Source: Opitutia bacterium (GTDB lineage Bacteria; Verrucomicrobiota; Verrucomicrobiia; Opitutales; Opitutaceae). From it: 50,221 nucleotides of DNA. Below, one piece after another: positions 4,933 to 47,358 of the stretch. Numbering within the stretch: the stretch's first letter is position 1; each line of letters begins with the position of its first letter. The DNA lies in assembly GCA_016190985.1 (NCBI GenBank), contig JACPPI010000008.1:1-50221 (forward strand). The letters are read 5' to 3'. Position numbers and translations under genes: made by a program. Under the pieces are notes generated by a model. That model made no database searches and had not been told where the DNA came from. It worked only from the letters and a program-made list of their open reading frames with translations.

Positions 4933-5397
4933 ATGCCCCCCACGGCGTCCAAATCGGGAGAAAAGATCGTGATGCTCGTCGACGACGAGTTCTCCTACAT
5001 CGACCTGCTGCAGCAGCTCCTCGGCGAACACCTTGACCGGCCCGTGCACGGTTTCACCAAGCCGGCCGACGCCCTCCGCGCCCTCCCCTCGCTCAATGTC
5101 GGCCTCATCATCACCGACTACCAGATGCCCGACATCAACGGCCTGCAGTTCATCGCGCGGGTGCAGAAGCTCAACCCGAACATCCCGGTGGTGATGATCA
5201 CGGCCTACAACATGACCTTCACCGATCGCGAACTGGCGGCCGTGCCCTCGCTCAAGGCCATCGTCCGGAAACCGTTCAAGTGGACGGCGCTCGCCGCCGA
5301 GCTGGTCAAGCACTGGCCCGACGCCAACCCGCCGAAGGTCATCAGCTCCAAGTCATCCTTCAAAGACAGCTCAGGCACGCCGTTTAAGCACGCGTAG
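4933..5397 (+). CDS. single-domain response regulator
   Basis: 154 aa from ATG 4933; in-frame codons back to 4738 overlap trmL and look non-coding. This is a stand-alone receiver (CheY-like) domain: acidic pair D17-D18, phosphoacceptor D62 in TDYQMPD, T90, and K113 in the RKPFK switch. About 30 residues of Ser/Lys-rich tail follow, with no output domain. The partner kinase is not in the window. The 3' end overlaps the 3' end of the convergent thrB by 27 bp, where the last ThrB codons come from inserted repeat DNA. Confidence 0.85.
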   Translation: MPPTASKSGEKIVMLVDDEFSYIDLLQQLLGEHLDRPVHGFTKPADALRALPSLNVGLIITDYQMPDINGLQFIARVQKLNPNIPVVMITAYNMTFTDRELAAVPSLKAIVRKPFKWTALAAELVKHWPDANPPKVISSKSSFKDSSGTPFKHA

Positions 5398-6528
5398 GCC
5401 GCCGGATTTTGCAGGGCGGGATGCTGATCCCGCCATATTCTCTTTGGGCCCAATACCCCGCGGCTTGCTTCGGCTTGGTTTGATTGTGGGAGCGTGCTTG
5501 CACGCGACTGTCGCGACCAAGGTCGCTCCCACAAAAGCGGGACAAGAGCTGTCTTGACCAAATGCCTCGGGGCTTGCCCCGAGGATCTTTCCTCTTGGCG
5601 GGGTCAGCGACCCCCGCCCGACAACGCGCAGGCCGCGGTTGTCGGCGAAGAGCGGGTGGATGGTCGCGGGGAGTTTGTGGGCCTTGAACGCCGCCGCCAT
5701 GGCGCGGCCGACCCGGGCGGCCTTCGCCGGCCGGGCCACGCAGAGCACGCTCGAGCCGCTGCCGCTCAGCCAGCCGGCGAGCGCCCCGGCGGCCACGCCG
5801 GCTTCGATCGCGCCCTTGGCGCCGGGGATCAGCGGCAACCGGTAGGGCTCGTGGAGAAAATCGCACACGGCGTCGCGCAGCCGGTCGTATTCGCCGGACA
5901 GGATCGCCGCCACCACGTAGGTCGCGCTGTTCACGCTCTTGATCGCGTCGAAATACGGCAGCTCCTTCGGCAGGATGCCGCGCGCCTTCCTAGTCTCCAA
6001 TTCCTGGTCGGGCGACGCGACGACGAAACACAGGTCGCGGCCGATGCGCCTGCGCAACACGCCGAGCAATTCGCCGGTGTGCGGGTGGCAGCGCGCCACG
6101 CAGAAGCCCCCGAGGACGGCCGCCGTCGCGTTGTCGGGATGCCCCTCCAACTGGGTCACGAGGGTGCACAGATCGTTCTTCGTCAGCTTGGCCCCGGACA
6201 TCTCGTTGAGCGCGGCGACCACGCCGGCGCGCAGCGTCACGCTGGAGCCGAGCCCGCGCGACATCGGCACCTCGCCCGTGAGGCCGAGTTCGTAGCCGAA
6301 CTCCTCGACGCCAGTGCGCACGAAGAACAGCGCCGCCGCCTCGTCGGCCATGCCAAGCCCGGCGTTGTCGCGGTCGGTCATCGGCCGCGCCCCGCTCCAG
6401 TCGCCGCGGGTCAGCGCGATGTCGTTGTAGATCGAGAGGGCGAGGCCGAGCGTGTCGAAGCCCGAGCCGCAGTTGGAGGTGCTGCCGGGCACGCGGACGG
6501 TGACGCTGTTGGGAAGTTTCCTGCTCAT
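5371..6528 (-). CDS. thrB: homoserine kinase with a repeat-derived C-terminal extension
   Basis: 385 aa against roughly 300-320 for the family. It phosphorylates homoserine in threonine synthesis. GHMP-kinase motifs are present: VRVPGSTSNCGSGFD at the N-terminus, the ATP loop VPMSRGLGSS (residues 88-97), and the C-terminal GAxAGWLSGSGSS-like segment. Native homology seems to end near residue 303 (DNRGLRVVG). Residues about 315-360 are encoded by a palindromic element also present in the pyrE 3' end. The last residues (GGLRVLKRRA) partly repeat the GLRVV just before the insert, as if an original tail had been split. Its start overlaps the smpB stop by ATGA, so it is coupled to smpB. Confidence 0.9.
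   Translation of the reverse strand: MSRKLPNSVTVRVPGSTSNCGSGFDTLGLALSIYNDIALTRGDWSGARPMTDRDNAGLGMADEAAALFFVRTGVEEFGYELGLTGEVPMSRGLGSSVTLRAGVVAALNEMSGAKLTKNDLCTLVTQLEGHPDNATAAVLGGFCVARCHPHTGELLGVLRRRIGRDLCFVVASPDQELETRKARGILPKELPYFDAIKSVNSATYVVAAILSGEYDRLRDAVCDFLHEPYRLPLIPGAKGAIEAGVAAGALAGWLSGSGSSVLCVARPAKAARVGRAMAAAFKAHKLPATIHPLFADNRGLRVVGRGSLTPPRGKILGASPEAFGQDSSCPAFVGATLVATVACKHAPTIKPSRSKPRGIGPKENMAGSASRPAKSGGLRVLKRRA
5449..5586 (-). repeat. composite palindromic element translated in frame in thrB
   Basis: About 138 bp. It contains a CCTCGGGGC/GCCCCGAGG hairpin and then an inverted pair of GTGGGAGCG REP units (5485-5533). By hand alignment it differs from the copy in pyrE (16467-16607) at about 8 positions over roughly 135 bp. 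It is in the same orientation and the same reading frame relative to the host gene. Confidence 0.85.
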
Positions 6529-6998
6529 GCGCGGTGTTTGAGGGCCTTGCGGGCCTCGAGGTTCTGCTCGCGCTTTTTGACGTCGGCGCGCTTGTCGAAC
6601 TGCTTCTTGCCGGAGGCCGTGGCGATCCCGACCTTCACGAGGGCCTGCTTGAAATACATCCGCAGCGCCACGATGGTCTTGCCGCCGGTCTCGACGGCCT
6701 GCGCCAGCTTGCGGATTTCGTTCGCATTGAGGAGGAGCTGGCGGACGCGGCGCGGGGCGTGCTGGGAGAGGCCGCCGTGCGAGTATTCCTGGATGTAGGC
6801 GCCGTAAAGCCAGACCCCGCCCTTCTCCACCCGGGCGAACGCGTCGGTGATCTGCGCCTTGCCGGCGCGGATGGATTTCACCTCGGTGCCGACCAGCTTG
6901 ATGCCCGCCTCGAACTTGTCGTGAATGAAATAGTCCCGCAGCGCCTTCGGGTTGCGAAGCTCGGTGTAGCGGGCGGAGTCGGGCGGCTTGGGGGCCAT
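6525..6998 (-). CDS. smpB: SsrA-binding protein SmpB
   Basis: 157 aa, normal length. It binds tmRNA and delivers it to stalled ribosomes for trans-translation. It shows the SmpB core: NPKALRDYFIHDKFEAGI, LVGTEVKSIRAGKAQITDA, and HAPRRVRQLLLNANEI, with a lysine/arginine-rich tail (KKQFDKRADVKKREQNLEAR) that enters the decoding centre. ATG at 6998. It overlaps the thrB start by 4 bp. A terminator at 7037-7068 separates it from rpoZ upstream, so smpB-thrB should have its own promoter in the short gap. I see no ssrA gene in the window. Confidence 0.95.
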   Translation of the reverse strand: MAPKPPDSARYTELRNPKALRDYFIHDKFEAGIKLVGTEVKSIRAGKAQITDAFARVEKGGVWLYGAYIQEYSHGGLSQHAPRRVRQLLLNANEIRKLAQAVETGGKTIVALRMYFKQALVKVGIATASGKKQFDKRADVKKREQNLEARKALKHRA

Positions 6999-7036
6999 GG
7001 GTGGAGTCCAGTCATGCGCCGGTCAGCGTGGGCCGC

Positions 7037-7068
7037 AAACAAAAGAAGCGAGGCCGGGGCCTCGCTTC
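7037..7068 (-). terminator. intrinsic terminator after rpoZ
   Basis: Read on the minus strand: a perfect GC-rich stem GAAGCGAGGC/GCCTCGCTTC with a 4-nt loop (7045-7068), followed by TTTTGTTT. It is placed downstream of rpoZ and before smpB. Confidence 0.8.
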
Positions 7069-7115
7069 GCGGAAACCGTGGGAGGAGCGCGTTGCCCGCA
7101 ACGCGCCGGGCCGGG

Positions 7116-7316
7116 TCAGGCGGTGTGCAGCTCGTAGCTGATCTTGCCCTCGATGACCTCGCGCAGGGCGATGTCCTCGGGGCTCAGTTTCTCGAGCGAC
7201 TCGACGAGCGGGCGGCTGCCGCGGCGGAGCTGCTTCACGCGGCGGGAAACCACGTTGATCAGGACGTTGGGGTCCTGGATGATCTTCTGGGCGTCGCGGA
7301 TGTATTCGTCTCTCAT
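7116..7316 (-). CDS. rpoZ: RNA polymerase omega subunit-like protein
   Basis: 66 aa from ATG 7316; the frame runs 17 codons further upstream, but those do not look like omega. The protein MRDEYIRDAQKI...PNVLINVVSRRVKQLRRG...LVESLEKLSPEDIALREVIEGKI matches the short omega proteins. These have an N-terminal helix, the NVVSRRVKQL helix equivalent to the conserved ARRARQL region, and a C-terminal 'ALREI..GKI' helix. Omega binds the beta' subunit and assists polymerase assembly. An intrinsic terminator follows. Assignment rests on motif recognition in a small protein. Confidence 0.8.
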   Translation of the reverse strand: MRDEYIRDAQKIIQDPNVLINVVSRRVKQLRRGSRPLVESLEKLSPEDIALREVIEGKISYELHTA

Positions 7317-7523
7317 GGGTGGGAAAAATAAAGGGGAAACACCTAGGTCGGGTCGCCGGAGCGTCAAGGGCTAATTGGGGGAATTGCATTGTTCCATGGG
7401 GTCCTGATCGGCCCGCGCGGCGCAAAGCCGTTGGCCATGGTCCCCAGCATGGACCCGGCCGTCATCAAGATATCCGACTTGCTGTGTCCCAGTGAGTTGG
7501 TGAGTGTGCCACGGTTTGCAAAA

Positions 7524-9752
7524 ATGAGCACCCTCCCACCCCAGACTTCGACCGCCGTCTTCCTGAGCTACGCGCGGGAAGACCAGGAAGCGGCGCGGCG
7601 CATCGCGGACGCGTTGATCGCGGCCGGGATCGTGGTGTGGTTTGACCAGTCGGAATTGCGCGGCGGGGACGCCTGGGACGCCAAAATCAAAAAGCAGATC
7701 CGCGAATGCGCGCTTTTCCTGCCGGTGATATCGGCCCACACCCAGACGCGCGGCGAAGGCTATTTCCGGCGCGAGTGGAACCTGGCCGCCCAGCGCATGC
7801 TCGACATGGCGCCCGGCCGACCTTTCCTCCTGCCGGTGGTCATTGACGATACGACGGAAAGGGCGGCGCTGGTTTCCGAGGAATTTCTCCGCGTGCAGTG
7901 GTCCCGTCTGCCCGGCGGCGGGTTTACCCCGGAGTTTCTCCGCCGCGTGCAGGAACTCGCCGCCGCGCTCCAGCAGGAGGCGGCGCCGCCGGCCGCCGGG
8001 GGCTCGCAAACACCCTGGCGGCCGCCGGCCCCGCCGCGCCCGCGTTTTTCCCGGCCCTGGCTGGCCGCCGCCGGCCTCCTGGCGCTGGGCGCCTCCTGGC
8101 TCGCGCAGCAGCAAGGCTGGCTCGGGGGCGACAGCAGCGCCGGCACCAAGCAGCTGGCCGTCCTTCCCTTCAAGAATATCGGCGCCGCGCCCCACACCAA
8201 GGCCCTGAGCGACGGCCTGTCCGAGACGCTCACCTCCCAGCTGGCCCAGTTGCAGCAGTTCCAGGACACGCTCGTGGTGATCCCCATGTCGGAAGTGCGG
8301 AAGGAACTCATCGCTACGGCCAGCGACGCGCGCAAGGTTTTCGGCGCCACCCTCGCCCTCACCGGCAGCGTGCAACACGCCGAGGACACGGTGCGCGTGA
8401 CCGTGAGCCTGGTGGACACGGCCACGTTGCGCATCCTGCGCAGCGCGACGCTGGACAACCCGACCTCGGAGTTCTACCGCCTGCAGGACCGGGTGGCCGC
8501 CGAAGCCGCCCGTTGGCTCGGGCTGCGGCTGTCCCCGGAAGCCCGGCGCGTGATCTCCGCCGGGCAGACCCAGGTCGCGCCGGCCTACGAGCTGTATCTG
8601 CAAGGCCGGGGTGAATTCGCCCGCCGCGATCTGGCGGGCAACCTCGACGCCGCCATCGTCCACTTCCAGCAGGCGCTGGTGAAGGATCCGCGCTACGCCC
8701 TGGCGCATGCCGCCCTCGGCGAGGCGTTCTGGGAAAAATACGCGGAGACGAAAATCCGACTGTGGGCCGACGAGGCCCGCGTCAGTTGCAACTCCGCGCT
8801 CGAATTCGGCGGCTCGCTGGCCAGCCCGCGCGTGACCCTGGCCGTGATCCTGAACGGGACCGGCCAATACGAGCAGGCGGTCGCCGAGGCGCAGATGGCG
8901 CTGCGGCTCGACCCGGCGAACGCCGACGCCGCGCGGACCCTGGCCCGGTCCTACGCCCGGCTGAACCGCGCGGCCGAGGCCGAGGCGACCTACCAGCGGG
9001 TGATCGCGCGCAACCCCGACAACAGCCGCGCGCACAGCGACCTCGCGGTCTTCTACTGGCTCGCCGGCCGGAATGCGGAGGCCGAGAGGCATTTCCTGCG
9101 CGTGGCCGAGCTGATTCCCGACAACTACATCGTCTATCGCAACCTGGGGGGGCTCTACGTGATGATGGGGCGGCGGGAAAAAGCCGCGGAATTCCTGCAA
9201 AGATCGCTGGACCTCAAGGCCTCCGCCCCCGCCCTTTCCAATCTCGGCACCCTCCGCTTCCAGGAGGGACATTACGCCGAAGCCGCAACGCTCTTCGAGC
9301 GGGCCCACAGCCTCGCCCCCCGGGATCATGTCCTCCTCGGCAATCTGGGCGACGCGCTGCGCCATCTCCCCGGCCGCTCCGCCGAAGCCCGGCCGGTCTA
9401 TGAGCGGGCCATCCAGCTGGCCGAGGATTTCCTCCAGGTAAACCCCAAGGATCCGGCGGCCCGCGCGAGCCTCGCCCGGTATTGCGCATTCAGCGGCAAC
9501 CTGCCCCGGGCGCTGGCCGAGATCGAGCAGGCGCGGTCGCTCGCCCCCGCCAATCTCCCCATCATGATCAGCGCCGCGCTGGTGTTTGAGCGGGCCGGCC
9601 AGCGCGACCAGGCCCTGGCCAGCCTGCTCCGGGCGCTCAAGGAGGGCTACGCCCGGGCGGACATCGAGAAAAACCCGGACTTGCAGGCCCTGCGGAGCGA
9701 CCCGCAGTTTCCGCCCGCCGTTCCCGAGGTCGCAGCGGCCCAGCCCAAATGA
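7524..9752 (+). CDS. TIR-domain / transmembrane / TolB-like / TPR protein
   Basis: 742 aa from ATG 7524; upstream in-frame codons to 7389 do not resemble the family. An N-terminal TIR domain (about residues 9-150) opens AVFLSYAREDQEAA, has the WFDQSEL region, and keeps a glutamate (E84 in YFRREWN) at the place where TIR NADases have their catalytic Glu. A Pro-rich linker and one membrane segment (about 178-194) follow. Then comes a domain like the TolB/FlgO-type N-terminus (QLAVLPFKNIGA...LSDGLSETLTSQLAQL, about 209-330), and finally many TPR units (about 352-730). The topology suggests a cytoplasmic TIR and an external TPR scaffold. The role is unproven: NAD+-cleaving signalling or defence, or a plain protein-protein adaptor. 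No partner effector is adjacent. Confidence 0.8.
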   Translation: MSTLPPQTSTAVFLSYAREDQEAARRIADALIAAGIVVWFDQSELRGGDAWDAKIKKQIRECALFLPVISAHTQTRGEGYFRREWNLAAQRMLDMAPGRPFLLPVVIDDTTERAALVSEEFLRVQWSRLPGGGFTPEFLRRVQELAAALQQEAAPPAAGGSQTPWRPPAPPRPRFSRPWLAAAGLLALGASWLAQQQGWLGGDSSAGTKQLAVLPFKNIGAAPHTKALSDGLSETLTSQLAQLQQFQDTLVVIPMSEVRKELIATASDARKVFGATLALTGSVQHAEDTVRVTVSLVDTATLRILRSATLDNPTSEFYRLQDRVAAEAARWLGLRLSPEARRVISAGQTQVAPAYELYLQGRGEFARRDLAGNLDAAIVHFQQALVKDPRYALAHAALGEAFWEKYAETKIRLWADEARVSCNSALEFGGSLASPRVTLAVILNGTGQYEQAVAEAQMALRLDPANADAARTLARSYARLNRAAEAEATYQRVIARNPDNSRAHSDLAVFYWLAGRNAEAERHFLRVAELIPDNYIVYRNLGGLYVMMGRREKAAEFLQRSLDLKASAPALSNLGTLRFQEGHYAEAATLFERAHSLAPRDHVLLGNLGDALRHLPGRSAEARPVYERAIQLAEDFLQVNPKDPAARASLARYCAFSGNLPRALAEIEQARSLAPANLPIMISAALVFERAGQRDQALASLLRALKEGYARADIEKNPDLQALRSDPQFPPAVPEVAAAQPK

Positions 9753-9863
9753 CCGACAGCCATTCCTGCGACCACACTTTCAAGGCCTCGGGTTTCAAGG
9801 ATTAGTGGTTTACATGAACCTGTCACCCGCTTCCCTTTCCTCCCACAACCACTCAACACAACC

Positions 9864-10328
9864 ATGACTACCCCTGCATCCCGCCGCCCCCTGTTCTCGC
9901 TCCTCCTCGCCATCCTGGCGCTGGCCCTGCCCGCCGCCTTGTGGGCCCAGCCGGCAGTCAGCCCGGTTTCCGACAACCCCAAAAAGACCCACACCATCAC
10001 GATCACCTATGCTGACGCCGGTTGGCATTATTCCATTTATCCGGCTCAGGCCGACCCCAAAAAGGCGAAGGTCAAGCGGGGCGACACCCTGAATTGGATT
10101 TGCTCTGACGGCAGCTGGCAGGTTTTTTTCAAAAACGGCGCCACGCCGCTGGTGGACGGCAATGGATATCCGGTCACTGCGGTCAATGGCGGAAGCGGCG
10201 AGACGGCTGGTGCCGCCGTCGGGGCAAAGGCCAAGGACGGCGACACCTTCACCTATGGCGTCAAAGTCCATCCCAACGGCGGTGGCGCCCCGGTGGTTGA
10301 TGACCCCGAGATCATCATCGAATCCTGA
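9864..10328 (+). CDS. secreted small beta-rich protein of unknown function
   Basis: 154 aa with a clear signal peptide (hydrophobic residues about 9-26, cleavage after ALWA). The mature part includes KVKRGDTLNWICSDGSW, then VFFKNG, and ends with FTYGVKVHPNGG and DPEIIIES. This is the rhythm of cupredoxin-like or plastocyanin-fold domains. The Cys/His/Met ligand set of a type-1 copper site is not visible, so copper binding is not claimed. It stands alone between the TIR protein and cutA, with 111 bp upstream. I do not recognise a named family. Confidence 0.7.
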   Translation: MTTPASRRPLFSLLLAILALALPAALWAQPAVSPVSDNPKKTHTITITYADAGWHYSIYPAQADPKKAKVKRGDTLNWICSDGSWQVFFKNGATPLVDGNGYPVTAVNGGSGETAGAAVGAKAKDGDTFTYGVKVHPNGGGAPVVDDPEIIIES

Positions 10329-10423
10329 TCGACCGGTTGCAGCCCGGCGTCCGTCATCCCGGCCCGCACGTGATTCCACATGCGGGCTTTGACATCCGGC
10401 CGTCGCCGGATGAAATTCGCCCC

Positions 10424-10762
10424 ATGTTCGTGGCCTGGACCACCACCGCCAAACGCGCCGACGCCGACCGGCTGGCCCGGGGCGCCGTCGAGGCGCGGCT
10501 CGCTGCCTGCGCCCAGGTCGACGGCCCGGTGGCCTCGTATTATCATTGGGAGGGCAAGCTGGAGACGGCCGAGGAATTCCGGGTGTGGTTTAAATACCTG
10601 CCGGGCAACGCCTCGGCCCTCAGCGGCTGGGTGCGCAACCACCATCCCTTCGCCACGCCCCAATGGATCGAGGTCAGCGCCGAGAGCGTGGGCGAAAAAT
10701 ACTTGTCATGGGCCATAGCCAACTCTACATCCGCACCCTTCCCCAGCCCGAAACCACGTTAA
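10424..10762 (+). CDS. cutA: divalent-cation tolerance protein CutA
   Basis: 112 aa from ATG 10424; the frame back to 10337 is unrelated. The trimeric ferredoxin-like CutA fold is recognisable from VAWTTTAKRADADRLARGAV, EARLAACAQV, SYYHWEGKLE and EEFRVWFK. The region after that (HPFATPQWIEVSAESVGEKYLSW) corresponds to the usual HPYE.PEI...N..YL.W. The role attributed to the family, copper/divalent metal tolerance, is poorly defined biochemically. It lies 15 bp upstream of the small basic protein gene and may be cotranscribed with it. Confidence 0.88.
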   Translation: MFVAWTTTAKRADADRLARGAVEARLAACAQVDGPVASYYHWEGKLETAEEFRVWFKYLPGNASALSGWVRNHHPFATPQWIEVSAESVGEKYLSWAIANSTSAPFPSPKPR

Positions 10763-10776
10763 TCCCACTCCCCTTT

Positions 10777-10935
10777 ATGTCCCAACATCCCAGTCTCAAG
10801 GCCTCCGGCGGCGGCCTCGTCGTCAAACGCAATGTCCTCAAGCGCTTCGAGCGCGTGGCCCTGCTCAAGAAGCGCGGCCAGTGGAAGGCCGGCGACCGCG
10901 TCCAGGGCCTCCGCAAGACCAAGGCCGACGTTTAA
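10777..10935 (+). CDS. small basic protein of the Chlamydiae/Verrucomicrobia type
   Basis: 52 aa, start ATG 10777. It is Lys/Arg-rich: MSQHPSLKASGGGL, then VKRNVLKRFERVALLKKRG and WKAGDRVQGLRKTK. I recognise this as the short conserved 'small basic protein' found across the Verrucomicrobia/Chlamydiae assemblage, with proposed association with RNA or ribosomes but no established function. It is followed 18 bp later by a strong intrinsic terminator. It is the best lineage marker in the window. Confidence 0.88.
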   Translation: MSQHPSLKASGGGLVVKRNVLKRFERVALLKKRGQWKAGDRVQGLRKTKADV

Positions 10936-10953
10936 CCGGCCCATCGCCATGTT

Positions 10954-10982
10954 GGCGGGCGTCACGCACGCCCGCCTTTTTT
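10954..10982 (+). terminator. intrinsic terminator after the small basic protein
   Basis: The stem GGCGGGCGT (10954-10962) pairs with ACGCCCGCC (10968-10976) over a 5-nt loop and is followed by six T (10977-10982). It ends 4 nt before the ATG of the DedA gene. Confidence 0.9.
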
Positions 10983-10986
10983 GTTT

Positions 10987-11613
10987 ATGCACGACCTCCT
11001 CAAGGACCTGATCGACTGGTATGTGAAGTCACTCGAGGCGGGCGGCTACCCGCTGATCGTGCTGCTCATGTTCATCGAGAGCACGTTCCTGCCGCTGCCG
11101 AGCGAGCTGATCATCCCGCCCGCCGCCCATCTCGCCTACACCAAGGGCCACATGAGCCTCGCCGGCATTGTGCTCGCCGGCGCGCTCGGCTCCTGGCTCG
11201 GCGCCACCGCGATGTATTGGGCGTCCCGCTGGGCCGGACGCCCGCTGGCCCTGAAGTTCGGCAAATACTTCCTCGCCCCGCCGGAAAAGATCGAGAAGGC
11301 CGAGCGCTGGGCCGCCGCCTACGGCAACTACGGCATCTTCGCCTCGCGCCTGCTGCCCGTCGTCCGCCATCTCATCGGCATCCCCGCCGGCATCGTGCGC
11401 ATGGATTACTGGAAGTTTTCGCTGTGGACCCTCGTCGGCTCCGGCCTCTGGTGCGGTGTCCTCTGCTGGCTCGGCATCAAGGCCGGACAGGACGAGGCCC
11501 TCATGAAGGGCGAGCTGCACGCGATCACGCTCTGGGGCGCCGGCATCCTCGGCGTGCTGGGCGTCATCTACTGGTTCTTCGTCCACCGCCAGATGCATGA
11601 GGGGAAAAAATAA
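10987..11613 (+). CDS. DedA-family membrane protein
   Basis: 208 aa from ATG 10987; a TTG at 10981 would lie in the terminator T-run. The DedA/VTT (SNARE-associated) signature is seen in the pattern E-x-x-x-P-x-P-x-E (ESTFLPLPSELIIPPA), followed by LGSWLGATAMYWASRWAGR. The re-entrant arginine segment is FASRLLPVVRHLIGIPAGI. Four or five membrane segments are present. DedA proteins are implicated in lipid scrambling or flipping (C55-P, PE) and in membrane potential homeostasis. No Shine-Dalgarno fits between the terminator stem and the ATG, so its transcript must start close to or inside the upstream gene and read through, or be nearly leaderless. Confidence 0.9.
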   Translation: MHDLLKDLIDWYVKSLEAGGYPLIVLLMFIESTFLPLPSELIIPPAAHLAYTKGHMSLAGIVLAGALGSWLGATAMYWASRWAGRPLALKFGKYFLAPPEKIEKAERWAAAYGNYGIFASRLLPVVRHLIGIPAGIVRMDYWKFSLWTLVGSGLWCGVLCWLGIKAGQDEALMKGELHAITLWGAGILGVLGVIYWFFVHRQMHEGKK

Positions 11614-11631
11614 GACTCAAAAGGTTTCTGT

Positions 11632-11678
11632 AGGGCGGGGTCGCGACTAGTGCGCAGCCTCGGCGGCTCACCCCGCCT
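11632..11678. repeat. GTAGGGCGGGGT...CCCCGCC palindromic repeat
   Basis: Inverted ends TAGGGCGGGGT and ACCCCGCC lie in the gap between the DedA gene and the PFK gene, directly before another palindromic repeat (11680-11745). The 238-bp gap is thus mostly repeat DNA. Confidence 0.5.
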
Positions 11679-11679
11679 T

Positions 11680-11745
11680 GGTGGAGCGGCTTGACCCCAA
11701 GACGCTGGTTTGCATGAAAGCGCGCTGAGATCAGCGCGCTCCACC
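11680..11745. repeat. GGTGGA...TCCACC palindromic repeat, copy 2
   Basis: Bounded by GGTGGAGCGGC and GCGCTCCACC, with the inner palindrome GCGCGCTGAGATCAGCGCGC. Same family as 2402-2462. Confidence 0.75.
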
Positions 11746-11851
11746 CTCATTGGCTGGAGCCACGGCGACCCCGCCGTGGATGGACCATGACACTGATCGC
11801 GATTGCCTCCGGGCGGACGAACGTGGCAGGTTTCCGGCCCACATCTTCACC

Positions 11852-13084
11852 ATGAGCTCTCCCAAGAAGAAAGTCGCCATCCTCACCGCGGGCGGACACG
11901 CCCCCTGTCTCAGCGCCGCCGTCGGCCAGCTCATCCTCCACTACACGAAGCAGTGTCCCGACTGGGAGATCATCTGCTACCGCTCCGGTTACAAGGGCCT
12001 GCTCCTCGGCGACAGCATCAAGGTCACGCCCGAGATCCGCGCCTCGGCCGCCGTCCTCCGCCAATACGGCGGCAGCGTCATCGGCAACAGCCGCGTCAAG
12101 CTCACCAACGTCAAGGACGCCGTGAAGCGCGGCCTCGTGCAGGAAGGCCAGCTCCCCCTCGACGTCGCGGCCGGGCAGCTTGCCAAGGACGGCGTCGACA
12201 TCCTCCACACCGTCGGCGGCGACGACACCAACACCACGGCCGCCGACCTCGCCGCCCATCTCCACAAGAACAACTACCAGCTCAACGTCATCGGCCTGCC
12301 CAAGACGATCGACAACGACATCATCCCCATCCGCCAGAGCCTCGGCGCCGCCACCGCCGCCGAGCAGGGCGCGCGTTTCTTCTCCAACGTCGTCACCGAG
12401 CTTGGCGCCAGCGCCCGCATGCTCATCGTCCACGAGGTGATGGGCCGCAACTGCGGCTGGCTCACCGCCGCCACCGCCCGCGAATACCAGAAAAGCCTCG
12501 CGACCAGGCAATGGGTCCCCGGCATCGGCCTCGCCAAGGAGCGCTACGGCGTCCACGCCATCTACCTGCCCGAGCTGGCCCTCGACATCGAGGCCGAGGC
12601 GAAACGCCTCCGCGCGCTCATGGACCGGCAGGGCAACGTGAACCTCTTTGTCAGCGAGGGCGCGGGCCTCGACAGCATCATCGCCGAGATGACCGCCCGC
12701 GGCGCCGCCATCGACCGCGACGCCTTCGGCCACGTGCGCCTCGACACCATCAACCCCGGCAAGTGGTTCGCCGAGCAATTCGCCAAGCTCATCGGCGCCG
12801 AAAAGACGCTCGTGCAGAAGAGCGGCTACTTCGCCCGCTCCGCCCCGGCCAACGACGAGGATTTCAAGCTCATCGACACCTGCGTGCTCAAGGCCGTCGA
12901 GTGCGCGAAAGCGGGCGTCACCGGCCTCATCGGCCACGACGAGGAACGCGGCGACGAGCTGCGCGCCATCGAATTTCCCCGCATCAAGGGCGGCAAGGCC
13001 TTTGACACCACCCAGCCCTGGTTCCAGGACCTGCTCAAGCAGATCGGCCAGCCGCTGACCAAGGTCGTCCACGTAAAGCACTGA
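11852..13084 (+). CDS. pfp: pyrophosphate-type 6-phosphofructokinase
   Basis: 410 aa from ATG 11852, which directly precedes the conserved strand KKVAILTAGGHAPCLSA. The phosphate-donor loop reads VGGDDTNTT (GGDD at residues 122-125). In the PFK family GGDD marks PPi-dependent enzymes, whereas GGDG is ATP-dependent, so PPi is the likely donor. The substrate loop PKTIDNDI (150-157) and the sugar-binding segment MGRNCGWLT are intact. It catalyses reversible phosphorylation of fructose-6-phosphate in cytosolic glycolysis and gluconeogenesis. It stands alone. A palindromic repeat begins immediately after its TGA. Confidence 0.9.
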   Translation: MSSPKKKVAILTAGGHAPCLSAAVGQLILHYTKQCPDWEIICYRSGYKGLLLGDSIKVTPEIRASAAVLRQYGGSVIGNSRVKLTNVKDAVKRGLVQEGQLPLDVAAGQLAKDGVDILHTVGGDDTNTTAADLAAHLHKNNYQLNVIGLPKTIDNDIIPIRQSLGAATAAEQGARFFSNVVTELGASARMLIVHEVMGRNCGWLTAATAREYQKSLATRQWVPGIGLAKERYGVHAIYLPELALDIEAEAKRLRALMDRQGNVNLFVSEGAGLDSIIAEMTARGAAIDRDAFGHVRLDTINPGKWFAEQFAKLIGAEKTLVQKSGYFARSAPANDEDFKLIDTCVLKAVECAKAGVTGLIGHDEERGDELRAIEFPRIKGGKAFDTTQPWFQDLLKQIGQPLTKVVHVKH

Positions 13085-13148
13085 GGTAGGGCGAATCCTC
13101 CGGATGAGCCGCTTCACGCCCGGCTCGTCTGGGACGACTCGCCCTACC
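13085..13148. repeat. GGTAGGGCGA...TCGCCCTACC palindromic repeat
   Basis: 64 bp bounded by perfect inverted GGTAGGGCGA/TCGCCCTACC, starting on the base after the PFK stop codon. An 18-bp exact match to its right end (GGTAGGGCGAGTCGTCCC on the other strand) is translated inside mnmA at 47132-47149. Confidence 0.75.
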
Positions 13149-13205
13149 CTGCAAAACCTGCTTGAACTCCCGCCCCGCTCGCGGAAGCTGGGCACCCTGT
13201 TGATT

Positions 13206-13280
13206 GCGAGCGTAGCACAATGGATAGTGTAGTGGCCTCCGAAGCCATTGATCCGGGTTCGACTCCCGGCGCTCGCACCA
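13206..13280 (+). tRNA. tRNA-Arg (anticodon CCG)
   Basis: A complete cloverleaf: acceptor GCGAGCG/CGCTCGC, D stem GCAC/GTGT, anticodon loop CTCCGAA with CCG at 13239-13241, and T arm CCGGG-TTCGACT-CCCGG. The discriminator is A and CCA is encoded (13278-13280). It reads the CGG arginine codon. Confidence 0.95.
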
Positions 13281-13307
13281 CTTTTTGATCCGGAGCGGAT
13301 CAAAAAG
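13281..13307. terminator. 12-bp perfect hairpin after tRNA-Arg
   Basis: The arms CTTTTTGATCCG (13281-13292) and CGGATCAAAAAG (13296-13307) surround a 3-nt loop and start directly at the tRNA CCA end. There is a T-run in the 5' arm rather than after the stem, so it may serve 3' processing or termination. Another repeat follows at 13310. Confidence 0.55.
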
Positions 13308-13309
13308 TG

Positions 13310-13335
13310 TCCGCCCTAGCCTTGGCGAAGGCGGA
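13310..13335. repeat. TCCGCC-nnn-CCTTGGCGAAGGCGGA repeat
   Basis: A short palindromic repeat with core GCCTTGGCGAAGG and TCCGCC/GGCGGA ends. Related copies: 23861-23883 (translated in uvrA), 33933-33955 and 49657-49682 (inside the integrase fossil). Confidence 0.65.
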
Positions 13336-13416
13336 CTCCTCACCCGCGACACCCCCTGAGAGCATCCCATGCAGGCCGATCTCTGGCTCTCCTCGCCGAC
13401 CGCCGCGGCGCGCCCG

Positions 13417-15141
13417 TCAGTCCCCCGCGGGCATGAAGCCGACATCCGGCAGCGTGCTCCGCTCCACTTCCTCCAGCGTGGTCCAGCCGATCAGGGCCTT
13501 CTTCAGGCCGTCATGGCGCAGGGACCGGTGGCCGACGCGCTTGGCCTCCTCGATCAGCAGCGCCACGCTCTGTTTTTCGGTGATGAGCTCGCGCATCCGT
13601 TCGGAAACCTCGACAAACTCGTAGATGCCCACGCGCCCGCTGTAGCCCGAGCCGAAGCACTTCGGGCAGCCGCGGCCGCGGTAGAGCGTGACCGGCGCAT
13701 CCGCGCAGCCGGTGAAGAACGGCGCCAGCTCCTGCTCGGTCGGCTGATAGGCCTCCTTGCACGAGGCGCAGATGCGGCGGACCAGCCGCTGCGACAGCAC
13801 GCCCATGGTCGTCGGGGCCACCAGGTAGGGATCGACCCCGATCTCCACCAGCCGCGTCACGGCCTGCAGGGCGTTGTTGGTGTGCAGGGTCGTGAGCACA
13901 AAGTGCCCGGTCAGCGCCGCCTCGGTGGCGATGAGCGCGGTCTCCAGGTCGCGGATCTCGCCGATGAGGATGACATCGGGGTCCTGGCGCATGATGCTGC
14001 GCAGCACCTTGGAGAAAGTCAGGCCGGTCGCCGGGTTGACCTGGTGCTGGGTGATGTCGGGCAGCCGGTATTCCACGGGATCCTCGATCGTCGTGATGTT
14101 GAGATCGGGCCGGTTGATGTGGTTGATGCCGCCGTAGAGCGTCGTGGTCTTGCCGCTGCCGGTGGGGCCGCAGACGATGAGGATGCCGTTGGGCCGGGCG
14201 AGCACGCGCTTGATCGCGGCGAGCGTGGAGCGCGGAAACCCGAGGGTGTCCAGGCTCAGCAGGGACTGGTCGAGCGGTGAGCCCAGGACCCGCAGCACGG
14301 CTTTCTCCCCGTAGAGGCTGGGCAGGGTCGAGACCCGGAAGGAGGTGTTGAGCGTGCCGAAGTTGAGCTCGAAGGCCCCGTCCTGCGGGAGCCGGCTTTG
14401 CGAGACATCGAGCTGGCAGAGCACCTTGATGCGGGCGACGAGGGTCCCATGCACCGGGCGGGGCAGCTCCATGATGGTCTGCATGTCGCCGTCGATCCGC
14501 ATCCGCACCCGGCTGTCCTCGGCCCGGGTCTCAAAATGAATGTCGGAGGCGCGGCGCCGGTAGGCCGTCAGGATGATGCTGTTGAGCAGTTCGATCACGG
14601 CCTTGGACTCGACGAGGTCGGCGACGTCGGCCGCGGCCTTGATCTCCCGGGCGCCGATCAGGCCGGGCAGCTGGTCGCACACGCTCTGGAGGTTGGCCAG
14701 GACGTTGCCCTCGGAGCCGAGATACATGTCGATGACGGTGGCAATCTCGTCGGGGTGGGCGAAGACCGGGCTGATGCTCTTGCCCAGGATCTTGCCCAGG
14801 GACTCGATCTGGCGGGTGTTGAGCGGGTCGGACAGGGCGACCGTGACGTTGTCACCCAGGGAACTCAAGGCGATGGCCCCCACGCGGCGGGCGATCTCGA
14901 CGGGCAACTGCTCCTGGCTGGCGGTCGGGATCGAGACGGTGATCGGGTTGACGTAGGCCACGCCGAGCGAATCGGCCCACAATTGATACAGCCGCGCCTT
15001 GGGCAGCACCGACCGCTCCATCAGGTCCTTGAGCAGCCGCATCGGGTCGCTCCGCAGCATCTCGGTCCGCGCCTCGATGACTTTCGCCTGCGTCGGGACC
15101 TGCTGGCGCAGGGAATCCAGGAATGTCTCCAGATTGATCAT
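13417..15141 (-). CDS. GspE/PulE/PilB-family secretion ATPase
   Basis: 574 aa. An N-terminal MshEN-like region (about 40-150) precedes the ATPase core. Walker A is GPTGSGKTT (residues 325-333), followed by the Asp box TTIEDPVEYRLP, the Walker B-like PDVILIGEIRD and the His box TGHFVLTTLHTN. A C-terminal tetracysteine zinc module (CASC...CPKC) also matches type II secretion / type IV pilus assembly ATPases. It should power pseudopilus or pilus assembly from the cytoplasmic face. Its ATG overlaps the stop of the 66-aa gene by 4 bp, so translation is coupled to that gene and the response regulator. No pilin or inner-membrane platform gene is adjacent. Confidence 0.9.
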   Translation of the reverse strand: MINLETFLDSLRQQVPTQAKVIEARTEMLRSDPMRLLKDLMERSVLPKARLYQLWADSLGVAYVNPITVSIPTASQEQLPVEIARRVGAIALSSLGDNVTVALSDPLNTRQIESLGKILGKSISPVFAHPDEIATVIDMYLGSEGNVLANLQSVCDQLPGLIGAREIKAAADVADLVESKAVIELLNSIILTAYRRRASDIHFETRAEDSRVRMRIDGDMQTIMELPRPVHGTLVARIKVLCQLDVSQSRLPQDGAFELNFGTLNTSFRVSTLPSLYGEKAVLRVLGSPLDQSLLSLDTLGFPRSTLAAIKRVLARPNGILIVCGPTGSGKTTTLYGGINHINRPDLNITTIEDPVEYRLPDITQHQVNPATGLTFSKVLRSIMRQDPDVILIGEIRDLETALIATEAALTGHFVLTTLHTNNALQAVTRLVEIGVDPYLVAPTTMGVLSQRLVRRICASCKEAYQPTEQELAPFFTGCADAPVTLYRGRGCPKCFGSGYSGRVGIYEFVEVSERMRELITEKQSVALLIEEAKRVGHRSLRHDGLKKALIGWTTLEEVERSTLPDVGFMPAGD

Positions 15142-15338
15142 GCGGAGCCGGTTTTGGTCGGGGCGGCGCGTTTGCGGAAACGGGCCGCGATGTCCTTCTG
15201 GTTCAGCAGCCGGGGGGTGCCCGAGGAGGCCTGGTTGTAGTCCAACCGGGCCTCGGCCAGCAGTGTCATCAGGTCATAGCGCACCAGATAGTCGGCCAGA
15301 GAAGGAATTTTGGCCTTGGTGTCCTTGGCGTCGTTCAT
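15138..15338 (-). CDS. 66-aa protein between a response regulator and PulE
   Basis: The start ATG 15338 overlaps the regulator's stop (ATGA), and its own stop overlaps the PulE start (ATGA). It is therefore a real coupled cistron despite its size. The sequence is mildly basic and helical (SLADYLVRYDLMTLLAEARL, then LNQKDIAARFRKRA), with no membrane segment or signal peptide. I do not recognise a family. Context suggests an adaptor linking the receiver domain to the secretion ATPase. Confidence 0.7.
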   Translation of the reverse strand: MNDAKDTKAKIPSLADYLVRYDLMTLLAEARLDYNQASSGTPRLLNQKDIAARFRKRAAPTKTGSA

Positions 15339-15742
15339 GAGGCGATCTTTTCGGCGGGAAAAAACAGTTTCAGCATGTCCTGCAATTCGGCCTTCAGGAT
15401 GTCGGCCCCGACATCCTTGCGGATGAAATAGGAGGCGCCCTTGGCCGCGCATTCCTCGACGACCGCCTCCTCGGAGATGGAGGTCAGCATCACGATCGGC
15501 GTGTCCGGCCTGAGGGCCCGCATCTCCCGCAACGCCTGCACCCCGTCGACCCGCGGCATGTTGATATCCAGCAGGATCAGCTCCGGGTCACACACCGCGC
15601 ATTTGGCGATGGCCTCTTCCCCGTCGCGCGCCTCCGTCAGCGCGCAATTGATCGACATGGACATGACCCGGCCGACAAAAGCCCTCATATAGGTTTCGTC
15701 ATCGACCAGCAGGACTCGGAGTGGCGGGTGGTGGTTCAGCAT
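15335..15742 (-). CDS. single-domain response regulator (CheY-like)
   Basis: 135 aa receiver domain with acidic residues in LLVDDE (D14, D15), phosphoacceptor D59 in LLDINMPRVDG, T87/S88 in MLTS and K109 in YFIRKDVG. There is no output domain. It is the first gene of a three-gene unit with 4-bp overlaps, ending with a PulE-type ATPase. This suggests phosphorylation-dependent control of pilus or secretion activity. The cognate kinase is not present here. Confidence 0.88.
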   Translation of the reverse strand: MLNHHPPLRVLLVDDETYMRAFVGRVMSMSINCALTEARDGEEAIAKCAVCDPELILLDINMPRVDGVQALREMRALRPDTPIVMLTSISEEAVVEECAAKGASYFIRKDVGADILKAELQDMLKLFFPAEKIAS

Positions 15743-15827
15743 GCTAAGTCATCCCATGTCCCTATCGGCCCGAATCCGACGGACTTGAGCGCGGGCCGCA
15801 GGTCTGACCGCCACGCGGCTCCCGAAC

Positions 15828-16646
15828 ATGCCTTGCCGCCAAGCGTTACCCAGTTTCACTCAGGAGATGCGGAACGACCTGCTGAAACTCCTCGCCGGCC
15901 GTCGCGGCCACTTCCGGATGGAATCCGGTTGCCACAGCGACCAGTGGTTCAACCTCGACCGGCTCTTCGACGATCAGGCCCGCCTCCAGCCCTTCGTCGA
16001 CGAACTCGCCCGCCGCCTCGCCGCCCATCGCTTCGAAGCCGTGGTCGGTCCGATGACCGGCGGAGCCAAACTGGCCGACCTGATCGGGGCCAAACTCGGC
16101 TTAACGAGTTTCCATACCGGGCGCCACGAGACGCCCGGCGCCACCGGCCTCTTCCCCGTCCGCTACGTCGTGCCCGCCGCCCAACGCGAGAACCTCCGCG
16201 GCAAGCGCGTCGCCATCGTGGACGACGCCATCAGCGCCGGCTCGGCCGTGAAGGGCACCCACACCGATCTGCTCGCCTGCGGCGCGCGGCCCGTCGCGTG
16301 CGGCGCACTCCTCATCTTCGGCGACCGGGCTGATGCCTTTGCCACCGAGAACAACCTGAAACTCGAAGCCATCGCCCGCATGTCATTTGGCATGTGGAAA
16401 CCCGGAGACTGTCCTCTCTGCAAAGCAGGCGTTCCTATCGAACAGGTCTCTGACGCGCCCCAAGTAAATATCCTCGGGGCGAGCCCCGAGGCATTTGATC
16501 AAGACAGCTCTGGTCCCGCTTTTGTGGGAGCGACCTTGGTCGCGACAGTCGCGTGCAAGCACGCTCCCACAACCAGACCAAGCCGAAGCCAGCCTCGAGG
16601 TATTGGACTCACTGTGAATAAACCTAATTTCCGCAGTTCAATTTAA
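15828..16646 (+). CDS. pyrE: orotate phosphoribosyltransferase with a repeat-derived C-terminal tail
   Basis: 272 aa against roughly 190-215 expected. The enzyme joins orotate to PRPP in pyrimidine synthesis. The PRPP loop is VAIVDDAISAGSAV (residues 128-141). The early motif GPMTGGAKLADLIG and the cysteine motif WKPGDCPLCKAGVPIE near the native end fit PyrE-type PRTases. Residues about 214-260 come from the same palindromic element as the ThrB tail; after it 12 more residues precede the stop. The start is uncertain: ATG 15828 is given, but ATG 15867 (MRNDLLK, with AGGAG directly before it) is possible. Whether the tail is tolerated or processed is unknown. Confidence 0.85.
   Translation: MPCRQALPSFTQEMRNDLLKLLAGRRGHFRMESGCHSDQWFNLDRLFDDQARLQPFVDELARRLAAHRFEAVVGPMTGGAKLADLIGAKLGLTSFHTGRHETPGATGLFPVRYVVPAAQRENLRGKRVAIVDDAISAGSAVKGTHTDLLACGARPVACGALLIFGDRADAFATENNLKLEAIARMSFGMWKPGDCPLCKAGVPIEQVSDAPQVNILGASPEAFDQDSSGPAFVGATLVATVACKHAPTTRPSRSQPRGIGLTVNKPNFRSSI
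16467..16607 (+). repeat. composite palindromic element translated in frame in pyrE
   Basis: Second copy of the element at 5449-5586, also at a gene's 3' end, in the same orientation and frame relative to the gene. The encoded peptides share ILGASPEAF, PAFVGATLVATVACKHAPT and PRGIG. The core holds two GTGGGAGCG/CGCTCCCAC REP units in inverted arrangement. Confidence 0.85.
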
Positions 16647-20090: not shown

Positions 20091-23000
20091 GTGCCTGCCG
20101 TGCCGCCCACCTCCGCCCCCGAGTCCATCCGCCTGCGCGGTGTCCGCCAGAACAACCTCAAGGGCTTCGACCTCGACCTGCCGCTGGGCAAATTCATCGT
20201 CGTCACGGGCCTGAGCGGTGCGGGCAAGTCCTCGCTGGTGTTTGACACGCTCCACGCCGAGGGCCAGCGGCGCTACGTCGAGACCTTCAGCGCCTACACC
20301 CGCCAGTTCCTCGAGCTGCTCGACAAGCCCAAGGTCGATTCGATCGAGAACATCCGGCCGTCCATCGCCATTGAGCAGTCCAACACGGTCAAGACCTCGC
20401 GCTCGACCGTCGGCACCATGACCGAGCTGACCGACTTCGCCAAGGTCTGGTTCAGCCACGTCGCCGAGTGTTTCGACCCCGCCACGGGCGAGAAGGTCGA
20501 CGACGACACCCCCGCCACGATCTGGGCGAAAACTCACGCCGCCCACCCGGCGGCCACGCTCCTGCTCTGCTTCCGCATCGCCAAGCCCGAAAACCTCAAG
20601 TGGACGGAGGTGCTCACCAGCATCAAGGGCCAGGGCTACACCCGCGTATTGGTCCAACGCTCAACGTCCAACGCTCAACGCCCAACATTCACTGATACTT
20701 CTGTCGAATTGCACAAGATCGACGACGCTCTGGCAGCCTTGGCGGGTTCGAAAGTTGGGCGTTCAAAGTTAAATGTTGAGCGTTGGGCGTTCCTTTTTGT
20801 CATCCAGGACCGCCTGGCCATCGTCGCCGACAGCAAGTCGCGCTTCCTCGAGGCCTGCGAAACCGCCCTGCACTTCGGGAAGGGCGAGGTCCACCTGTTT
20901 GCGCCGCAGAATCGCGACGAATGGCGCGCGAGTTCTGCGGACGCATCCCGGGCGGCGAGCACGCCGCAACGGGACGGCTCTCAACCATTCCCCCCCGCCG
21001 GCCATTACTCGCGCGGCCTGCATTCGCCCAAGACCGGCCGCACTTTCCGCGCCGCCTCGCCGGGCCTGTTTTCCTTCAACTCGCCGCTCGGCGCCTGCCC
21101 GAGATGCCGGGGCTTCGGCCGCGTCATCGACATCGACTACCGCCTCGCCATCCCCGACCATTCCGTGTCGATCGACGACGGCGCCATCCGGCCGTGGGAG
21201 GGCGAGATCTACGGCGAGTCCAAGAAGGATCTGCTCAAGTTCACCCGCAAGCTCGGCATCCCGACCGCCATTCCCTTCGCGGCCATGTCACCGGAGCACA
21301 AGGCCTTCGTCATCGACGGCTCGCCGGGCTACGATGGGCAGACCAAACGCTGGCCGAAATACTGGTATGGGCTGAAGGGATTTTTCCGCTGGATGGAGAA
21401 GACGACCTACAAGATGCACGTGCGGGTCTTCCTCTCGCGCTACCGCGCCTACAACTCCTGCCCCGACTGCCACGGCGCCCGCCTCCAGCCCGACGCGCTC
21501 TGCTGGCAATGGCGCGGCTGCACTCTGCCCCAGCTCTACCAACTCCCGATCAGCGAACTGCTGGCCATGGTTCAATCTTGTGGGAGCGGGCTTGCTCGCG
21601 ACAACGTGGCATCAGCCCACAGCGCGTCCATCGCCCACGATTCCATCGTCACCCGCCTCCGCTACCTCGCCCAGGTCGGCCTCGGCTACCTGACGCTCGA
21701 CCGCAGCTCCCGCACGCTTTCCGGCGGCGAGGTCCAGCGCGTCAACCTCACCTCCTGCCTCGGCACCTCGCTGGTCGACACGCTGTTCGTCCTCGACGAG
21801 CCCTCCGTCGGCCTGCATCCGCGCGACATCGACCGCCTGCTCGGCATCATCCGCACGCTCACCGACGCCGGCAACACCGTCGTCGTCGTCGAGCACGACG
21901 AGGCGATGATCCGCGCCGCCGACCACGTGATCGAGGTCGGCCCCGAGCCCGGCGCGCGCGGCGGCCACATCGTGTTCCAAGGCACGGTCGGCGGCATGCT
22001 CGCCTCGCCCGGGAGCATCACCGGCGCCTACTTCTCCGGCCGCCAGCGCATCGACGCGCCCGCCCAGCGCCGCCCGGCGCCTAAGCACTGGCTTAATTTC
22101 AAGAACGCCACCAAGCACAACGTCCGAAACCTGTCCTTCCGCCTGCCCCTGCAGCGCTTCGTCTGCCTCTCGGGCGTCTCCGGTTCCGGCAAGTCCACTC
22201 TCCTCGACAACGTCATCTGCCAGGGCCTGCTTACCCAGCGCAGCCTGATGACCGAGGACCCGGCCGAGATCGAGGCGATCAGGTCCGGCCTCGCCTTCTC
22301 CGAGGTCGTGCTGGTCGACCAGTCGCCGCTGAGCCGCACACCGCGTTCCAACCCCGCCCTCTACTGCGAGGCCTGGGAGCTGATCCGCGAGCTCTACGCC
22401 ACCGTGCCCGCCGCCCAGGAGGCCGGCTTCACGGCCTCCAGCTTCTCCTTCAACAGCGGCGACGGCCGCTGCGACAACTGCCAGGGCCTCGGCAGCGAGC
22501 GCGTCGAGATGCAGTTCCTCTCCGATGTCTTCGTGCCCTGCCCCATCTGCGAAGGTCGGCGCTTCAAGCCCGAGGTGCTGGCCGTCACCTGGAACGGGCA
22601 CTCCGTCGCGGACCTCCTGGCCACGACCGTCGGCGACTCGCTGCCCATATTTTCCGCTCACCCCGAGATTCACCGCCGGCTCGCCGCGCTCGACGAAGTC
22701 GGCCTCGGTTACCTGCCGCTCGGCCAGCCGCTCAACACCCTCTCCGGCGGTGAATCGCAAAGGCTGAAACTGGTCAGATATCTGTCCGATTACGCTGGCG
22801 AGGATATCCAATCCAAAATCGAGAATCCAAAATCGGAAATCCCGGCAGGGGCCCTGCTCCTCCTCGACGAGCCCACCACCGGCCTGCACCGCCACGACGT
22901 GAAGCGCCTGCTGGCCGTGCTGCAGCGCATCGTCGACCGCGGCCACAGCATCGTCGTCATCGAGCACAACCTCGACGTGCTGAAATCCGCCGACTGGGTC

Positions 23001-47267: not shown

Positions 47268-47283
47268 TCGAGGAACTCTTGGT

Positions 47284-47358
47284 GGTGGAGCGCGCTGACC
47301 TCAGCGCGCTTTGTCCGGCAGACTCCAAACCAGCGTGCTGGGGTCAGCACGCTCCACC
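47284..47358. repeat. GGTGGA...TCCACC palindromic repeat downstream of mnmA
   Basis: 75 bp. Its first 27 or so bases match the start of the copy inside mnmA (GTGGAGCGCGCTGACCTCAG). It ends GTCAGCACGCTCCACC. Confidence 0.8.

Follow-up and report, generated by a model that had tools for sequence, protein, structure and literature searches.

The stretch analysed here, hereafter the window, comprises 50,221 nt of an Opitutia bacterium contig (JACPPI010000008.1, assembly GCA_016190985.1) and carries two copies of a palindromic element, one inside thrB and one at the 3′ end of a gene resembling pyrE (Table 1). The window is contig C3 of the source genome, G000, which amounts to 2.95 Mb in 34 contigs (G, C and L labels denote genomes, contigs and loci, respectively). 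The PyrE name is tentative because the best profile match lies under its own cut-off; a pyrE profile search of G000 returned nothing above the cut-off, which is weak evidence given that the window gene itself was not listed either. When window positions 5436-5600 (minus strand) and 16456-16620 (plus strand) were aligned, 147/165 positions were identical without gaps, and a search of the whole genome with the PyrE copy recovered the ThrB copy (93% identity across 144 nt, E 8.4e-57). Translation of both showed that the ThrB and PyrE open reading frames (ORFs) pass stop-free through the element in identical frame and orientation. An earlier examination of the letters alone (the sequence-only reading) had described two matching copies with one frame, one orientation and common peptides, and all of this was borne out, with the identity extending over a wider span. 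As delimited by the termini of aligned long copies (in gene sense, 5′ AGTAAAGATCC and 3′ GAATAAA), the element is 154 nt in each window copy, that is, 3n+1. The same reading held that most frames of the palindrome contain stops. Over the full 154 nt this is true of the PyrE copy, in which two of six frames are open (one sense, one antisense), and untrue of the ThrB copy, in which four are (all three sense, one antisense); within the element bounds used in that reading, four of six frames are open in each copy.

Table 1. Features of the thrB and pyrE-like loci and of their element copies (window coordinates; RE and LE, right and left end of the insertion sequence; REP, repetitive extragenic palindrome).
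Feature	Position	Strand	Remarks
Response-regulator gene, convergent with thrB	4972-5397	+	
thrB ORF, 385 aa including insert	5371..6528	-	NCBIfam TIGR00191, 174.4 bits (cut-off 168.25); profile match to residue 302
Native thrB 3′ end GLRVLKRRA*, in frame after insert	5371..5400	-	Overlaps 3′ end of convergent response-regulator gene
Outer REP-type hairpin, downstream (gene sense) of element in thrB	5415..5434	-	
Element copy in thrB, 154 nt	5440..5593	-	RE at 5593, LE at 5440
Interior REP dimer of ThrB copy	5486..5532	-	
Outer REP-type hairpin, upstream (gene sense) of element in thrB	5597..5618	-	
pyrE-like ORF, 272 aa including tail	15828..16646	+	Best profile TIGR01367, 56.7 bits (cut-off 150.25)
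CAA codon where most orthologs stop (..SDAP*)	16461..16463	+	Last A is an element base; one T-to-C step from TAA
Element copy at pyrE 3′ end, 154 nt	16463..16616	+	RE at 16463, LE at 16616
RE module of PyrE copy, with hairpin	16463..16510	+	
Reverse complement of last tnpA codons and stop (GAGCTGTCTTGATC), inside RE of PyrE copy	16497-16510		
Interior REP dimer of PyrE copy	16524..16570	+	Two inverted GTGGGAGCG..CGCGA repeats
LE module of PyrE copy	16571..16616	+	Hairpin degenerate; followed by target-like AATAAA

The parentage of the element was indicated by contig C23 of G000, where a truncated tnpA-like ORF terminates inside the 5′ end of an element. With this fragment as query, matches were obtained in G000 and G013 (2/57 genomes). 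G013, a congener assembled as a single contig, harbors two intact 563-bp copies of an insertion sequence (IS) that are 99.5% identical, have the layout TTTATTC..CCAATACCCCGGAGCTTGCTCCGGCTTGG - tnpA - GAGCTGTCTTGATCAAATGCCCCGGAGCTTGCTCCGGGGATCTTTAC, and share their left end (LE) and right end (RE) with the element. When reverse-complemented, the window element consists of both IS ends with a dimer of repetitive extragenic palindromes (REPs) in place of tnpA, and a vestige of the last TnpA codons and stop, ..ELS*, can be read in its frame -1. The G013 TnpA matches the profiles NF033573 (125.1 bits; cut-off 55) and Y1_Tnp (123.2 bits), placing it in IS200/IS605. Full or partial relatives of this TnpA accounted for 12 matches in 10/252 family genomes at E 1e-40, and of the eight whose flanks were inspected, six had a clear LE and RE, one an RE only, and one diverged ends. 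We had considered whether the Y1_Tnp match on C23 might be a REP-associated tyrosine transposase (RAYT), but dropped this because its closest intact relatives are IS200 TnpA proteins. Flanking the other Y1_Tnp matches in G000, a partial element end was seen beside C5:316-579 (L149), with no further ends by eye.

The search of the genome and of other Opitutaceae that the sequence-only reading had proposed, together with a table of frames and positions, was carried out and yielded 92 unique end-to-end copies. A 150-nt query gave 71 matches in G000 at E <= 10, many of which cover just the ~50-nt central hairpin and many of which were scored on each strand, and the element was matched at E 1e-6 in 16/57 relatives' genomes. 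Copies were then defined by pairing RE and LE profiles over the collected loci, excluding 45/149 RE matches that had no partner LE. The lengths of the resulting 104 RE-LE pairs were bimodal (99 of 92-237 nt and 5 of 553-555 nt), and merging duplicates left 92 copies from this genome and its relatives, of which 88 are short (<300 nt), too small to encode a transposase, and 4 are long. A degenerate RE pattern occurred in 83 stretches in GTDB species genomes; among the 80 of 83 matches listed, all were by title Opitutaceae, Opitutia or other Verrucomicrobia metagenome-assembled genomes, including two stretches of one bin labelled Spartobacteria. Both ends are palindromic, with the RE paired at each of nine positions in 73-83 of 84 copies and the LE at each of seven positions in 58-73 of 78. 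Compensating changes are seen at two pairs of the RE hairpin, where 42-43 of the 84 copies have G-C (or C-G) and 31-35 have A-T (or T-A). The RE hairpin is the clearest signal of constraint in these alignments, and selection appears to act on a DNA structure recognised by the IS200-type transposase. Taken together, the element is very probably non-autonomous, derived from an insertion sequence of the IS200/IS605 family but devoid of a transposase, and of the type known as palindrome-associated transposable elements (PATEs). Three loci situated at contig ends (L007, L019 and L149, on C1, C24 and C5) have a variant LE with a common flank, GTATGTCCCACCTCGTGAATAGACGCAGGGCAGTGACAG; this recurrence suggests a larger repeat that breaks the assembly.

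We next classified the 92 copies according to their positions relative to genes, as called by a home-made hexamer caller trained in this analysis. No called gene abuts 52 of them. For 17, a sense gene terminates at element bases 3-5, with TAA in 15 cases and TGA in two. Two further genes (L005 and L187) end in a TGA whose A is the first base of the element, and in L003 and L221 the gene stop lies 12 or 0 nt ahead of it. Sense ORFs that read through the element are found in 4/92: thrB, pyrE, an ArsC-family gene in a relative's genome (L182; PF03960, 40.9 bits) and a weak ORF with no Pfam match (L193). The three recognisable genes all use one element frame. In the antisense direction, a gene was called through the element at L237 and, doubtfully, at L105; genes at L120 and L128 run in from the opposite end before stopping; and six genes end near the LE. 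L105 was set aside as an in-gene copy because the N-terminal half of its gene is, by eye, probably a false 5′ extension of the downstream gene. The gene at L128, pnp-like by eye, seems to be frameshifted. The ten paired copies of G000 itself comprise two read-through genes, one gene end, one shared stop base and six intergenic copies.

The placement of copies exactly at stop codons was further analyzed in two genes. In G000, G007 and G012 (L242, L246 and L248), the element sits exactly on the stop of a fumarase-like gene, which is compatible with either a shared or a repeated insertion, and among 15 genes of the same family without the element, 11 end at the same position and four end 1-2 residues later. 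Likewise, the element lies on the purA stop in L166 and L162, and 19/20 complete ends in the same family are equal in length. These relatives show the fumarase-like and PurA proteins to be unaltered by the element at their stop. In G012, rejoining the fumarase flanks by eye gives GAA AAA TAA AAA.., which is the type of sequence that relatives without the insertion have. Past the LE of the 17 stop-register copies we found TAA in six, TGA in six, TAG in two and an unassigned sequence in three; these mixed stops, as opposed to the TAA in 15 at the RE side, argue that the RE-side stop is mostly not a target duplication. The six IS copies with a clear LE are flanked on the left by TTTATT or TTCATT, which points to TTYATT (AATRAA in gene sense) as the probable target. 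As background we used 314 kb of other loci that had been collected for ThrB, PurA and the fumarase-like gene; three of these loci have an element at a stop. They contain 242 AATRAA sites, 112 of them within coding sequence and 10 serving as stop codons in the register in question. The stop register is more frequent among the copies (17/92) than among all such sites (10/242; Fisher p 6e-5) and shows a modest excess over the non-coding ones (10/130; p 0.02), although both p values are optimistic because the copies are related. At about position 2150 of L110 (G012), tandem elements have one ARTAAA in common, as though the second had targeted the edge of the first.

The two window copies occupy a different register, and their relationships to the native gene ends are not alike. 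In congeners such as G004 and G013, ThrB terminates in ..GLRVLKRRA*, and the same tail follows the insert in frame in the window, so that the notion of the sequence-only reading that native ThrB ends just before the element did not hold up. The idea that both genes had lost their own C-terminus was dropped on these grounds. The thrB insert is nested, with the element and its two outer REP hairpins lying between near-identical copies of GGCCTRCGCGT that are 234 nt (78 codons) apart (window 5371-5635); in G015, a similar pair of outer REP hairpins is present in thrB and the stop follows immediately. Given that the native tail overlaps the response-regulator gene, its DNA would presumably be kept in any event, and its being in frame after an open insert would be a one-in-three event. 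For PyrE, the corresponding claim agrees with the family orthologs, 8/12 of which end at ..VSDAP* or the equivalent, while the other four extend 1, 3, 10 and 10 residues further.

The common frame can be examined in light of the stop-codon layout of the element. In 86 of the 88 short copies (two whose ends run off the locus were left out), sense phase 1 has a stop at offset 2 in 76 and phase 0 a stop at offset 33 in 32, whereas phase 2 is open through the RE in 80 and throughout in 42. Given these early stops, it is mostly phase 2 that permits a long read-through. Phase 2 is the sole open sense frame of the PyrE copy, so its frame was forced; the ThrB copy is open in all three sense frames, so its agreement with PyrE is a one-in-three coincidence. 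The sequence-only reading had allowed that the element might carry simply a stop-free frame, and this is the option favored here, as the common frame is the one sense frame without early stops in most copies.

A mechanism can be proposed that would connect these observations. TnpA, supplied in trans, would insert the element without target duplication beside TTYATT. The gene-sense form AATRAA often holds a stop (NAA TRA A). With AGTAAA, the right end of the element, this would become NAG TAA; as the final residue and the termination are both retained, the protein would be untouched. In thrB and pyrE the element would have arrived in another register, in which the usually stop-free sense frame meets the ribosome. 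In pyrE, a stop overlapping the element edge would have been lost by a single change (TAA to CAA), allowing translation to run through. In thrB, the element may have landed between two REP hairpins already present in the last codons of the gene, and a copy without both usual sense stops, within an insert totaling 234 nt, would let the native C-terminus still be read. The tails are apparently tolerated by-products that need no function to explain them, and they apparently arose by accident and not by design. The full proposition, that in this Opitutaceae IS200/IS605 lineage the TTYATT target coincides with stops and AGTAAA rebuilds NAG-TAA to give a silent “stop-codon safe harbour”, from which stop loss then makes a protein tail and so a repeatable route to new C-termini, is one to which we would give an even chance of being right. 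The analysis as a whole shows that a striking same-frame coincidence can stem from the way in which stop codons are laid out in a mobile element, without selection for translation. It links a REP-rich, little-studied family to a definable IS200/IS605 system with seemingly silent insertion at stops, and it offers a testable route by which the end of a transposon could become the tail of a protein.

The derivation from an IS has direct support in the common ends, the intact IS200-type TnpA relatives, the relict tnpA stop, the compensated hairpins and the placement at stops in several relatives. A number of observations nonetheless weigh against it or against the accompanying mechanism. Mobility is deduced from sequence, with no transposition event observed. 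No intact matching tnpA was found in G000 at E 1e-40, and the LE hairpin of the PyrE copy folds no better than shuffled sequences. The 11-nt duplication around the thrB insert is unexpected for insertion of either an IS200/IS605 element or a REP. Four of the 17 stop-register genes are weak calls (score below 45), and the comparison of native gene ends covers two such genes, the fumarase-like gene and purA. The rejoined pyrE flanks yielded no unique empty site when compared with G010, and the pre-insertion pyrE could not be reconstructed because the nearest ortholog is too divergent downstream. The openness of every sense frame in the ThrB copy, noted above, also counts here, as the agreement with PyrE was not forced. 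Lastly, stops occur less often than in dinucleotide-shuffled sequences in five of the six frames (three of the 88 short copies were skipped), with the translated frame open in 42/85 copies versus 21.4 expected, and LE codon changes in that frame show a mild synonymous excess (fraction 0.379 versus 0.296 expected).

These last two observations bear on a quite different explanation, namely that the element is a protein-coding palindrome comparable to those of Rickettsia, with one frame kept open because translation permits life inside genes and perhaps because the peptide is useful. In keeping with it are the presence, within a single genome, of in-frame copies in two core enzymes, a ThrB copy that has lost both usual sense stops and leaves the native C-terminus in place, and the use of the same frame by the ArsC-family gene of a relative (L182). 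However, the distribution of copies speaks strongly against it, since recognisable sense read-through genes number three among the 92 copies, against 17 genes that end at the element and 52 copies that are gene-free. The excess of open copies is larger in one antisense frame (46 versus 16.2 expected, in related copies) than in the translated frame, and RE codon changes have no synonymous excess (0.287 versus 0.306 expected; segments too far from consensus, 6/90 RE and 25/90 LE, were excluded from the codon test). Constraint tracks the hairpin, and the IS relatives account for the sequence. Judged by gene calls alone, the antisense gene at L237 and the entries at L120 and L128 (leaving aside the doubtful L105) break the uniformity of frame and orientation that the sequence-only reading had emphasized, and mixed frames and orientations were the outcome which it had itself named as contrary to its proposal. 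We consequently rejected an element adapted to translation on the basis of the frame survey and the codon test, and consider this explanation very improbable.

An ordinary REP or REP doublet (REPIN) spread by a RAYT, with the outer sequences being mere flanks, is no less improbable. This possibility is raised by the interior, a GTGGGAGCG-type REP dimer, and by a RAYT gene on C30 (NF047646, 85.5 bits; cut-off 80) that has such dimers on both sides; GTGGGAGCG-like units also occur singly many times in G000. In L150 (G000 C30:77539-81700), positions 1750-2490 hold the RAYT between GTGGGAGCGAGCTTGCTCGCGAC dimers, forming a REPtron whose REPs are of the type found in the element interior. The hallmarks of a REP or REPIN (a short GTAG/GTGG-tagged hairpin, dimers, a RAYT in the genome) are nevertheless confined to the inner 47 nt. 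The outer ends are conserved over copies with different interiors, the GGAGCG..CGCTCC (GTGGGAGCG-type) interior being present in 32/88 short copies, and identical ends bound an IS200 tnpA in the intact IS. The whole element is therefore bounded by IS ends rather than by REPs, and a pure REP/REPIN identity was rejected for this reason. The inner REP dimer and the outer ends differ in origin, and the RAYT may move the inner REPs independently. Assembly or base-calling errors that erased the native stops and created unreal tails are the least credible explanation, for although this is a draft of 34 contigs and PyrE hinges on a single codon, there is no N in either locus, for ThrB several errors would have had to act together (all sense frames of the element lack a stop, and the insert is 234 nt), and L182 provides an independent third case.

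The IS605-derived PATEs of Haloquadratum (PMC3119063) contain no transposase, have near-terminal palindromes like those of IS200/IS605, are described there as showing no evident inverted terminal repeats or target duplication, and outnumber their parent IS; the Opitutaceae element resembles them in these respects, probably including the lack of target duplication. It differs in its bacterial host, in sometimes containing a REP dimer, and in often lying exactly on stops that its right end replaces. Relative to IS200/IS605 elements as outlined in PMC7290912, it has the subterminal hairpins, an IS200-type TnpA in its 555-556-nt versions and a target-like sequence beside the left end, whereas the window copies lack tnpA and the TTYATT motif is one deduced here. 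GTAG REPs, according to a published survey (PMC3733652), lie mostly downstream of genes and sometimes inside ORFs, and their termini often give flanking ORFs a TAG stop; in that survey, intragenic GTAG repeats are most numerous in Opitutus terrae, whose GTAG-20 repeats mostly have GTGG termini. Judged by that description, the inner REP, which starts GTGGGAG, is similar, but the outer IS ends that define the element and supply the stop are not REPs. Nearly half of 44 Rickettsia palindromic elements, and 11/12 homologs in other species, are reported to lie within ORFs (PMC10969869). By description, these share with the present element a size of about 150 bp, palindromic structure and some in-frame copies within core genes, whereas in our data sense read-through is rare (4/92 copies) and the IS origin is clear. 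Palindromic elements fused into proteins are thus on record both for Rickettsia (PMC10969869) and for enterobacteria, whose ORF-bearing repeat units (PMC2759123) are likewise small mobile sequences giving fusions; IS605 stem loops overlapping the 3′ ends of Borrelia lipoprotein genes (PMC2775950) are a further instance of mobile sequence at gene 3′ ends, the elements and hosts being different in the last two cases. No IS200/IS605 element that restores stop codons was found in the literature searched, and within that literature the lineage and its stop-codon register seem to be undescribed, although the general kind is already known.

Two other features of the window were observed. A 2007-codon ORF at 20091-26111 has long internal repeats and repeated ABC-type motifs and looks like a double-length UvrA-type protein. 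A second small palindrome family, GGAGCGCGCTGACCTCAGCGCGCTTT, occurs at 2398-2430, 11716-11745, 46513-46545 and 47280-47312.

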